Part shown: positions 14,971 through 24,846 of the stretch, one piece after another
Layout: each line of letters starts with the position of its first letter
How positions within the stretch are numbered: the first letter of the stretch is position 1
From: Borborobacter arsenicus
GTDB taxonomy: Bacteria > Pseudomonadota > Alphaproteobacteria > Rhizobiales > Rhizobiaceae
NCBI RefSeq assembly: GCF_003934165.1
Contig: NZ_RKST01000001.1
Coordinates: 1-64,000, forward strand
Length of the DNA stretch: 64,000 bases
Direction of reading: 5' to 3'
Notes under the pieces: generated by a model
Database searches by the model: none
What the model was told of the DNA's origin: nothing
Seen by the model: the letters and a program-made list of their open reading frames with translations, nothing else
Made by a program: the position numbers and the translations under genes

Positions 14971-16368
14971 TCACACCAGCATTCCCATCGGATTTTCGAT
15001 GTGGCGCTTGAAAGCGGCAAGCAGTTCGGCACCCAATGCACCATCGACGGCTCGATGGTCGGTCGAAAGCGTCACCGACATAATGGTGGCGATCTTGATC
15101 TCGCCATTCTTGACCACCGCCCGCTCCTCGCCGGCGCCAACCGCCAGAATGGTGGCGTGCGGCGGGTTGATGACGGCAGAAAAGTCCTTGATGCCGAACA
15201 TGCCGAGATTGGAAACCGCAGTCGTCCCGCCCTGATATTCCTCAGGCTTCAGCTTGCGGCTCCTGGCGCGCGCGGCCATATCCTTCATCTCGTTGGAGAT
15301 TACGGACAGCGTCTTCTCATCGGCCTTGCGCACGATCGGCGTGATCAGCCCGCCGGGGATCGACACGGCAACGCCGACATCGGCATGCTTGTGCTGCACC
15401 ATCGCACTGTCGGTCCATGAGACATTTGCCGCCGGAACGTCGCGCAGCGCCAGTGCCATCGCCTTGATGACCAGGTCGTTGACCGACAGCTTGTAGGCGG
15501 GAACATCGCCCTTGTCGGTCTTGCGCATCGGTGCGGCATCATTGAGCTGCTTGCGCAGCGCAAGCAGGGCGTCGAGCTCGCAATCCAGCGTCAGATAGAA
15601 ATGCGGGATCGTGCTCTTGGCTTCCACCAGCCGCCGCGCAATGACCTTGCGCATATTGTCGTGCGGCACCAGTTCGTAGGAGCCTTCCTCGAAAAGCTTG
15701 AGTACGGCATCATCCGACATCGGCTTGGGCGCGCTGGCCGGTGCGTCTGCCGGTGCCTTCGCAGCAGGCGTTGCCTTGGCGCCGCCACCGGCAATCGCTG
15801 CCTCGACATCGGCCTTCACCACGCGGCCGCGCGGTCCGCTGCCTGCAATTGCGGCGACATCGATGCCCGCATCCTTGGCAATGCGGCGGGCAAGCGGCGA
15901 GGCGAAGGCGCGATCTGCCCCATTACCCTCCCCCTTGTGGGAAGGGTCGGTGCGCAGCACCGGGGTGGGGGCCGCTTGCGTTGCAACAGCCTTCTCACCC
16001 CCACCCGCGCCTTCGGCGCGACCTCCCCCATCCGAGGGGGAGGTAAGAGCCTTCTCCTGCTTAGCCTCTGCCTTGGCAGGTGCAGCACCATCGCCGCCGG
16101 CCTTGGCCGCAGCACCCACATCCTCACCGTCGGCCGCCAGAACGGCGATCAGCGCATTGACCTTGACGCCTTCGGTGCCGGCAGGCACGACGAGCTTTGC
16201 CACCGTGCCTTCATCCACGGCCTCGACTTCCATCGTCGCCTTATCGGTCTCGATCTCGGCGATCACGTCGCCGGGCGAAACCTTGTCGCCTTCCTTGACC
16301 AGCCACTTGGCAAGATTGCCCTCTTCCATTGTCGGCGAGAGGGCAGGCATGGTGATGTTGATCGGCAT
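14971..16368 (-). CDS. pdhC: Dihydrolipoyllysine acetyltransferase (E2 of pyruvate dehydrogenase)
   Basis: A 465-residue E2. One lipoyl domain covers residues 1-80 with the lipoylated Lys43 in [11 protein letters not shown]; the E1/E3-binding domain starts near residue 155 (ASPLARRIAKDAGID); the catalytic domain runs from about 235 and ends with the DHRAVDG motif. Residues of about 109-148 in the first linker are unusual: rich in Gly, Pro, Ser and Arg and encoded by a GC-rich palindromic repeat (15925-16044). The frame is intact, so the enzyme probably works with a longer linker. Confidence 0.95.
   Translation of the reverse strand: MPINITMPALSPTMEEGNLAKWLVKEGDKVSPGDVIAEIETDKATMEVEAVDEGTVAKLVVPAGTEGVKVNALIAVLAADGEDVGAAAKAGGDGAAPAKAEAKQEKALTSPSDGGGRAEGAGGGEKAVATQAAPTPVLRTDPSHKGEGNGADRAFASPLARRIAKDAGIDVAAIAGSGPRGRVVKADVEAAIAGGGAKATPAAKAPADAPASAPKPMSDDAVLKLFEEGSYELVPHDNMRKVIARRLVEAKSTIPHFYLTLDCELDALLALRKQLNDAAPMRKTDKGDVPAYKLSVNDLVIKAMALALRDVPAANVSWTDSAMVQHKHADVGVAVSIPGGLITPIVRKADEKTLSVISNEMKDMAARARSRKLKPEEYQGGTTAVSNLGMFGIKDFSAVINPPHATILAVGAGEERAVVKNGEIKIATIMSVTLSTDHRAVDGALGAELLAAFKRHIENPMGMLV
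15925..16044. repeat. Palindromic repeat element inserted in the pdhC reading frame
   Basis: Two half-elements face each other. The left half (15925-15971) has an ACCCT/AGGGT-flanked hairpin, then GGTGC-GCA-GCACC, then GGGGTGGGGG. The right half (15994-16044) has the mirrored order: CACCCCCACC, then CGCGCC-TTC-GGCGCG (16006-16020), then ACCTCCCCC-ATCCGA-GGGGGAGGT (16021-16044). Between them are 22 bases. Length is 120 bp, a multiple of three, and there is no stop in the pdhC frame. A related module lies in intergenic DNA at 24151-24202. This resembles protein-coding insertions of palindromic elements known from Rickettsia. Confidence 0.8.
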
Positions 16369-16380
16369 GAGCGTCCCCCC

Positions 16381-17775
16381 TCAGCGATAAGTGACGGCTT
16401 TCACCGCCTCGACGACCTCGCCGACATTGGGCAGCGCCAGCTTTTCGAGATTGGCCGCATAGGGCATCGGCACGTCCTTTCCGGCAATGGTGATCACGGG
16501 CGCGTCGAGGAAATCGAATGCGCGCTGCATCACCTGGCTGGCAATATGGTCGCCGACCGAACTCTGCGGGAAACCTTCCTCCACCACGACGAGGCGATTG
16601 GTTTTCTTGACAGAAGCAATCACCGTATCGAAATCGAGCGGCCTGATGGTACGAAGATCGATGATCTCGACATCGATGCCCATCTCGCGCAGCTCGGCTT
16701 CAGCCTTCACCGCATAGGTCATACCGATGCCGAAGGAGACGATGGTCACGTCCTTGCCCTGCTTGTGGATGCGTGCCTTGCCGATCGGTAGCACGAAATC
16801 ATCCAGCTTGGGCACGTCGAAATGCTGGCCGTAGAGGATCTCGTTCTCGAGGAAGATCACCGGATTGGGATCGCGGATCGCAGCCTTCAGTAGGCCCTTG
16901 GCATCGGCCGCCGTATAGGGCATCACCACTTTCAGCCCCGGAATATGGCTGTACCAGGCGGCATAGCACTGCGAGTGCTGGGCGGCGACGCGGGCGGCAG
17001 CCCCATTCGGACCGCGGAAGACGATAGGCGCACCCATCTGGCCGCCCGACATATAGAGCGTCTTGGCCGCCGAGTTGACGATCTGATCGATCGCCTGCAT
17101 GGCGAAATTGAAGGTCATGAATTCCACGATCGGCTTCAACCCGGCAAAGGCAGCACCAACGCCGACGCCGGCAAAACCGTGCTCGGTGATCGGCGTATCG
17201 ACCACTCGCCGGTTGCCGAACTCCTGCAGCAACCCTTGCGTGATCTTGTAGGCGCCCTGATATTCGGCGACCTCCTCGCCCATCACGAACACGTCTTCAT
17301 CACGGCGCATTTCCTCGGCCATCGCATCGCGCAATGCTTCACGCACCGTGGTCGAAACCATCTCCGTGCCCGCCGGAATATCCGGATCGGCCGCAACTTC
17401 CGCCTTGGGCGCAGCGGCGACAGGCTGCGCCGCCGGCTTTGATGCCGCTGAGGCTTCGACCGGCGCTTCGGGTGCTTTGGCAGGAGCCTCGCTTTTCGCA
17501 GTCGCCGGCGCTTTCATCGCATCGGCGCTTTCGCCGTCGGCCAGAAGCACGGCGATCGGTGTATTGACCTTCACCCCTTCGGTGCCGGCCGCAATCAGGA
17601 TCTTGCCCAGAGTACCCTCGTCGACAGCCTCAACTTCCATCGTCGCCTTGTCGGTCTCGATCTCGGCAATAACGTCGCCGGCGACAACCTTGTCGCCCTC
17701 ATTCTTCAGCCACTTTGCTAGGTTGCCCTCTTCCATCGTCGGCGAGAGCGCGGGCATGAGAATTTCGATCGGCAT
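16381..17775 (-). CDS. pdhB: Pyruvate dehydrogenase E1 beta subunit with N-terminal lipoyl domain
   Basis: A 464-residue protein. Residues 1-80 form a lipoyl domain nearly identical to that of PdhC (Lys43 in [11 protein letters not shown]), an Ala/Pro-rich linker covers about 85-135, and the thiamine-diphosphate-dependent transketolase-like E1-beta part follows. The extra lipoyl domain is a known feature of rhizobial and other alphaproteobacterial E1-beta chains. It starts 15 bases after pdhA and ends 12 bases before pdhC. Confidence 0.96.
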
Positions 17776-23904: not shown

Positions 23905-24086
23905 CTATGGTTATCCGGTGCTCGATCACGCCCTGTCCGGTGAAGCTGCAAAGCCTGGCAAGCCACCCATCCGCGCATTGTGCATCCACACCGACTCCCA
24001 CTCACAATTTGCCCCGCCCTTAAGCTGCCTCGCTGCGCTCGTCGCTGGCGGGGGCCCGAATGGCCAGGCGCAGGCCAAGGGTGCGG

Positions 24087-24119
24087 CTTTCCATCGCCAC
24101 GCCCGCAAAATGCGTCTGG
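24087..24119. repeat. Imperfect direct repeat, copy 1
   Basis: This 33-base unit, with core GCCACGCCCGC and end GCGTCTGG, recurs with few changes at 24233-24264, 146 bases on. Confidence 0.6.
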
Positions 24120-24150
24120 TGGTCCTTGCCCCGCCCTCTCCACCTTGCTC

Positions 24151-24202
24151 CGCCCCTCTCCGTCTCGGCTTCGCCTCGACACCTCTCCCCAGAGGGGCGA
24201 GG
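24151..24202. repeat. Palindromic module related to the pdhC insertion
   Basis: An imperfect hairpin GTCTCGGC-TTC-GCCTCGAC (24162-24180) is followed by CCTCTCCCC-AGA-GGGGCGAGG (24182-24202, one mismatch). The order and spacing match the right half of the element inside pdhC (16006-16044). Confidence 0.55.
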
Positions 24203-24232
24203 AACCCAGGTCTTGAAAGGTCTTAGCCACAG

Positions 24233-24264
24233 TTTTCCATTGCCACGCCCGCTTTCGCGTCTGG
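24233..24264. repeat. Imperfect direct repeat, copy 2
   Basis: Second copy of the unit at 24087-24119; the AAAAT before GCGTCTGG is replaced by TTTC. Confidence 0.6.
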
Positions 24265-24846
24265 CCATTGTCAAAGAACATGGGAAGACGGGCGGCACGG
24301 GACACGCTCATCTTATTGTAATTTCGTGCGGTCCTTCGGCCGCCCGTCCGGTGTTCTTGCCTTGAGCGCGGGAGACAGCATTCCATCATGCCGGCAAAGC
24401 CGCCCTCCAAGGCCCGGACCTGAGGGCTCATCACCCAGCAACGCCACCATCGCGTCACCGATCCGGCACCGTCCCCTCCACGCTCATCCGGTTCATGACC
24501 CGTGTTCCCGCGAGGGCGATGCGGGGATTATGAGGGCACAAGCGCAAGGCGGGGATGAGAAAGTGCCGCGTGGGTGGGCAAAGGCAGGTGTGGCAAGGGG
24601 TTGCGGGCCGGGGTGGATGGATTCTGTCCACGCTTTCGGGGCGCATGCCTTCTGCGCGGCGGCGACTGTCGTCGCGGTCATGGAATGGATCCCCGAGTTC
24701 CAGCGGTTCGCTGCGCTCACCACCGGCCTCGAGGATGAGGAAGGGAAAGGGGAAAGGTCCCCCTCACCCGGCCTTCTGCACAAGCCACTGGCTCTAAAAG
24801 ACAGGGCAGCGGCTTCTGGAAAAAGCGGCGGGAACCCGCGGGATGC

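Follow-up and report, generated by a model that had tools for sequence, protein, structure and literature searches.

The pyruvate dehydrogenase E2 gene pdhC of Borborobacter arsenicus carries, in frame, an insert that is very probably a non-autonomous palindromic repeat, tolerated by the enzyme and predicted to be translated as a flexible E2 linker. A preliminary description of this DNA had proposed that a flexible E2 linker tolerates such an element. The proposal is supported by the in-frame position of the repeat, by the recurrence of its half-modules in the genome and by the lack of conservation of the residues it encodes. The window, that is, the whole stretch of 64,000 nucleotides that was analysed, comprises positions 1–64,000 of the forward strand of contig NZ_RKST01000001.1 (assembly GCF_003934165.1).

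Structure and Location of the pdhC Element

PdhC was identified as pyruvate dehydrogenase E2 by TIGR01349, which covered residues 4–465 with 567 bits (cut-off 445). The protein contains a lipoyl domain (residues 4–77), an E3-binding domain (155–189) and a catalytic domain (230–464). The Pfam limits of the first two confirmed that residues 109–148 lie between the lipoyl and E3-binding domains, as described earlier. An element of 120 bp had been placed at 15,925–16,044. It is indeed found there, in frame in pdhC, and comparison with the other genomic copies widened its limits to 15,923–16,046 (TTACCC...GGTAA). The coding frame runs through it free of stops, as had been noted, while the length, formerly given as a multiple of three, is 124 bp as delimited here, the value of 120 bp following from the ends chosen.

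The element consists of two 49-bp modules in opposite orientation, each with two hairpins, and a spacer between them (Table 1). It bears terminal inverted repeats, which is a feature of MITEs. In the family, the tails point outward (TTACC...GGTAA), and copies with both modules present span about 90–145 bp. Both tail-out and head-out module arrangements were found in the genome. The neighbouring pdhB gave no match to the covariance model of the pdhC element.

Table 1. Coordinates of the pdhC element, its host gene and other features in the window, and of further in-gene copies in the genome (positions with the prefix C1 or C8)
Feature	Position	Strand	Remarks
pdhC, dihydrolipoamide acetyltransferase (E2), host gene	14971..16368	−	ORF of 465 aa; TIGR01349, Pfam
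Whole palindromic element	15923..16046	−	124 bp; encodes PdhC residues ~108–149 in frame
Module 1	15923..15971	−	C-rich arm, GC hairpin, terminal hairpin with end GGGTAA; 73.9 bits, E 7.6e-12 in genome; 1 of 11 training rows
Spacer separating both modules	15972..15997	.	
Module 2, inverted	15998..16046	+	Variant with TCGGAT loop in terminal hairpin (coding-strand reading); 56.4 bits, E 3.6e-8; also training row
pdhB (E1 beta subunit; has a lipoyl domain and a linker)	16381..17775	−	Homologous linker in Mesorhizobium AR07 carries pdhC element family
Module of another palindrome family	24152..24204	+	37 genome matches, itself included; 12.6 bits, E 0.69 with pdhC element model
Fused oligopeptide-type ABC protein	C1:390346-390464		Between its two ATPase domains; pdhC element family
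Hydantoinase/oxoprolinase-like protein	C1:570852-570942		Within Hydantoinase_B match (407–951); pdhC element family
Acyl-CoA synthetase	C8:15380-15434		Directly before ATP-grasp domain; pdhC element family
Second E2	C1:635425-635566		Lipoyl/E3-binding linker; kindred family
CobG	C1:462810-462987		TIGR02435 spans insert, above cut-off; kindred family

As single-stranded DNA, the element has a folding energy of −39.4 kcal/mol, whereas its shuffles average −26.6 kcal/mol (z −4.2); the coding-strand RNA folds at −79 kcal/mol (z −4.05). In both cases, 0 of 200 shuffles folded as well. The predicted RNA fold is symmetrical and consists of a terminal hairpin, a GC hairpin, a central stem, a second GC hairpin and a second terminal hairpin. 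A predicted RNA of this stability, with nearly intact hairpin stems, is what would be expected if the element served as nucleic acid, its hairpins in the pdhC mRNA slowing translation between the domains or protecting the transcript and its protein sequence being incidental; moreover, REP-type repeats have been reported to influence RNA stability (PMC5082802). Such a role is nevertheless improbable, given the lack of conservation of the site (no insert was recognised in 85 of 90 linkers, the linker of G058 being counted among those with one) and given that the same family also occurs in unrelated genes.

Copies in the Genome and Separate Families

A BLAST search with the 120-bp sequence yielded 14 matches in the genome, the query site included. 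One other match showed 76% identity over almost the full length, and part-length matches showed 80–96%. A covariance model built from 11 modules was then applied to the 5.4-Mb assembly, giving 50 module matches at E ≤ 0.1, which were grouped as 28 clusters. Sixteen of these matches lie below 1e-5, and 11 of the 16 are training rows. The weaker matches among the 28 clusters include two kindred palindromes, a heads-out type (CCCCCACCCC...) and the Mesorhizobium AR07 type. The half-modules therefore do occur elsewhere in the genome. It should be noted that the match counts reported here (14 for BLAST and 37, 111, 22, 11, 88 and 4 for individual repeats) include the query's own site; since palindromes also match both strands, the true copies are fewer. 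Among 101 genomes, the own one included, 44 contained matches to the model at E ≤ 1e-4. In two of them, G070 and G053, at least 59 module matches each were counted, some of those in G070 standing in series at a spacing of about 200 bp.

The preliminary description had also named a module at 24,151–24,202 as a relative of the pdhC element. Its layout is similar, but it belongs to a different family with its own set of matches (Table 1). On either side of this module stand the two copies of a 19-bp direct repeat (24,088 and 24,234) and a pair of 13-bp inverted arms (24,059 and 24,257); the region 24,059–24,269 looks as if the module were part of a larger composite repeat. Mobility of the pdhC element, formerly deduced from this module, is suggested here by copy number and by presence and absence among relatives.

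In-Frame Copies in Other Genes

At least 6 of the 28 clusters lie in frame inside genes recognisable by Pfam or NCBIfam; four belong to the pdhC element family and two to kindred families (Table 1). For the remaining 22 clusters, flanking genes were identified at one locus (L165), where the element precedes the likely start. Since the list includes both pdhC and the second E2, two of the six copies are situated in E2 linkers. The copy in the hydantoinase-like protein falls within the Hydantoinase_B match and therefore outside any interdomain linker. The in-gene copies of the pdhC family are 124, 119, 91 and 55 bp long. None of these lengths divides by three, so the frame is set by the junctions. 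A shared peptide, (T/P)SPxxGG...DPxHKGEG, was found in the pdhC, ABC protein, hydantoinase-like and synthetase copies and in the PdhB copy of Mesorhizobium sp. AR07, one GG being RG. A preference for one reading frame was considered and rejected as weak, roughly half of the open frames being of that type.

Empty sites were sought in related genomes. At the hydantoinase site, the same-genus genomes G001 and G002 are empty and read PVFDD(T/A)GKEILFY, and the own genome reads PVFEEAG-insert-ERRILFW. Across 14 loci (L245–L258), extra sequence at this site is present in the own genome (G000), G075, G007, G073 and G023 and absent in nine. In G023, this extra sequence is another palindrome, whose arms are CCTCAGGATGAGG/CCTCATCCTGAGG. 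At the synthetase site, the same-genus genome G003 carries a two-module element; the own copy resembles one that has lost internal sequence, and G001 and G002 have unrelated sequence. No clear target-site duplication was seen at the hydantoinase and synthetase empty sites, whose flanks have diverged. In-frame insertion is shown more directly at the hydantoinase-like gene, with its two empty same-genus relatives, than in pdhC.

Linkers of E2 and PdhB in Alphaproteobacteria

To survey the linkers, 90 PdhC linkers were taken from the 101 genomes, 11 being omitted because of partial or weak matches. A second, best-hit set gave parsed linkers for 73 of 80 loci; the two sets overlap in genomes, and their rates were not summed. 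Each linker was compared with 40 codon-order shuffles, and the threshold was z < −2.5. Four of the 90 linkers passed, namely the own one (z −2.74), G027, G037 and G008, the last (L223) through a single 15-bp hairpin, as judged by structure. The linker of G058 contains the left half of the own element by sequence, yet its z was +0.33. Among the 90 linkers, the own included, residues 109–148 are partly shared by G058 alone; hence, they are not conserved, in agreement with an inserted origin as first described.

Of the 73 best-hit linkers, 10 passed the threshold, and eight of these had clear multi-hairpin repeats on inspection, two of the eight (L028 and L032) probably being in E2 paralogues. 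Hairpins were visible in L048 and L072, with scores under the threshold. The inserts of L061, L042, L045 and L051 were judged from structure alone. Five other linker inserts were confirmed as repeats within their own genomes. With the insert itself and both strands counted, there were 22 genome matches for G027, 11 for G037, 88 for Chelativorans alearense (L032), 4 for the MAG PRO6 (L026) and 111 for Mesorhizobium AR07. L032 is probably an E2 paralogue, as is L028 of M. sophorae.

These data also bear on a local origin, according to which a GC-rich low-complexity linker became palindromic by chance and no repeat element is involved. High GC and Ala/Pro contents characterise such linkers, and L024 and L029 passed the fold threshold with no evident repeat. 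A chance palindrome is contradicted by the near full-length and part-length genomic copies recovered by BLAST and the covariance model, and the own linker folds better than its codon shuffles; we regard this origin as extremely improbable.

The two sets together yielded 76 PdhB linkers; at 94 of 170 loci no such linker was obtained. Two of the 76 passed the threshold, L016 with an evident repeat and L119 without. The 90-genome set did not show PdhC to be a hotspot relative to PdhB (4/90 vs. 2/76, Fisher p 0.69); the best-hit PdhC set compared with the same PdhB linkers (10/73 vs. 2/76) gave p 0.016. A hotspot in PdhC is thus not shown statistically. Over all parsed linkers, the median length was 78 aa in the 14 labelled as carrying an insert versus 64 aa in the 149 others (p 0.009).

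Mesorhizobium sp. AR07 (L016) carries the pdhC element family in its PdhB linker and a different (Mesorhizobium) family in its PdhC linker, the latter insert having 111 matches in its own genome (itself and both strands counted). Two Mesorhizobium genomes close to AR07 in the linker-free protein tree (L015 and L039, end branches ≤0.023) are without either insert, and the comparison is the cleanest case of presence and absence. In both genes of AR07, the inserts replace part of the older linker; because old sequence is displaced, the net gain is about 9–18 residues rather than about 40. In M. sophorae, L028 has the insert and the preceding residues in common with AR07 PdhC, suggesting that E2 genes have exchanged sequence.

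Origin of the pdhC Copy

In a linker-free tree, the own PdhC clusters with G058 and G010 (92/95), apart from three genomes of the same genus. This grouping, instead of one with its GTDB genus mates, could reflect gene transfer. In G058, from a different genus, the left half of the element is present almost letter for letter in the same place, and the PdhC linker of G010 is without the insert. None of the pdhC genes without the element had a linker that could be aligned cleanly, those of the same-genus genomes having diverged. The copy may go back to a single insertion followed by loss, may have been exchanged between genes, or may be one of several separate insertions.

A rather unlikely but serious alternative to fresh insertion is that the copy arrived by recombination among carrier genes or together with a transferred pdhC allele. 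The half element of G058, the clustering of the own PdhC with G058 and G010, and the sequence common to L028 and AR07 PdhC all fit this alternative. Against it, the inner forks of the tree are mostly weak (15 of 28 are open), G010 has no insert, and the other in-gene copies require insertion regardless.

Comparison with Known Palindromic Repeats

In REPINs, a spacer separates two palindromic modules of opposite orientation, and RAYT is a Y1_Tnp-type transposase. The pdhC element likewise has two inverted palindromic units and a spacer; it differs in that the own genome (98.5% complete assembly) gave no match to Y1_Tnp (PF01797), for which 5 of 14 control genomes were positive. In addition, Rfam 15 gave no matches at gathering score in four copy-bearing loci (L155, L156, L157 and L159).

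Wolbachia palindromic elements are of the same kind as those of Rickettsia (RPEs) and lie in frame in genes. RPEs are palindromic repeats of about 100–150 bp that are tolerated in frame inside unrelated genes (PMC2229807, PMC10969869). The likeness to RPEs lies in the in-frame palindromic repeats in unrelated protein genes, here at least 6 of 28 clusters. The difference lies in the Hyphomicrobiales-type genome and the GC-rich modular two-hairpin units.

Intragenic REPs tagged with GTAG or CGTC are short palindromes, frequently dimers, inside ORFs (PMC3733652). Different REPs were described there near the same recB site in two Xanthomonas, and flexible linkers were proposed as neutral places. 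The main text of that paper makes no mention of "pyruvate", "lipoyl", "dihydrolipo" or "acetyltransferase". Unlike these repeats, the pdhC element has no GTAG or CGTC tag at the stem base. Among 11 aligned modules, inspected by eye, most end in GTAA and two in GTAG, on the 3′ side of the stem.

Each CIR of Caulobacter and Brucella is a palindrome of two arms that ends in TA; CIRs carry GANTC and are said to be absent from gene interiors (PMC2229807). The pdhC element is also an alphaproteobacterial two-armed palindrome with terminal TA, but it is located within a gene, and GANTC was absent from both copies tested (the pdhC copy and L157). Many MITEs end in TA as well (PMC2229807), as do the ends of the pdhC element family. 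Br-REP1 and Br-REP2 of Bradyrhizobium are palindromic, intergenic and in 3′-UTRs, one of them within a three-hairpin element (PMC5082802). They resemble the pdhC element as palindromic repeats of Hyphomicrobiales and differ from it, by eye, in their printed consensus sequences.

Taken together, the pdhC element behaves like RPEs and intragenic REPs, and the features tested as diagnostic of REPIN/RAYT systems, of tagged REPs and of CIR (a Y1_Tnp transposase, a GTAG or CGTC tag and GANTC, respectively) were not found. A literature search by titles and abstract openings found no palindromic inserts in E2 among the matches listed, subscription papers being thinly covered.

Proposed Mechanism and Biological Meaning

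We suggest the following course of events. Copies of the element would spread through an enzyme acting in trans, and most insertions that break proteins would be purged by selection. Those in flexible places would survive, being translated as a Gly/Ser/Pro/Lys-rich peptide. In PdhC, the insert would keep the swinging-arm tether functional at near-normal length. The preliminary description had called the element domesticated; it is in frame and tolerated, but the term exceeds the evidence, which tolerance with predicted translation fits equally well.

E2-type tethers look like safe landing sites because some related bacteria hold other repeats in the same tether. In a broader reading, to which we give even chances, the E2 and E1-beta linkers of Alphaproteobacteria would serve again and again as safe harbours, different palindrome families inserting there independently and replacing the old linker, and repeats would regularly supply new disordered sequence in core metabolism. 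In-frame palindromic insertions are already known, best from the intracellular Rickettsia and Wolbachia and from scattered intragenic REPs. The present case is set apart by its element, its host group and the repeated use of one core-enzyme linker by several repeat families: in-frame insertions occur in several enzymes of a single rhizobial-type genome, and the repeats in the E2 linker differ by lineage. The question of whether a mobile repeat can turn into working protein thereby becomes testable in culturable bacteria, with an enzyme complex that is essential and easily assayed.
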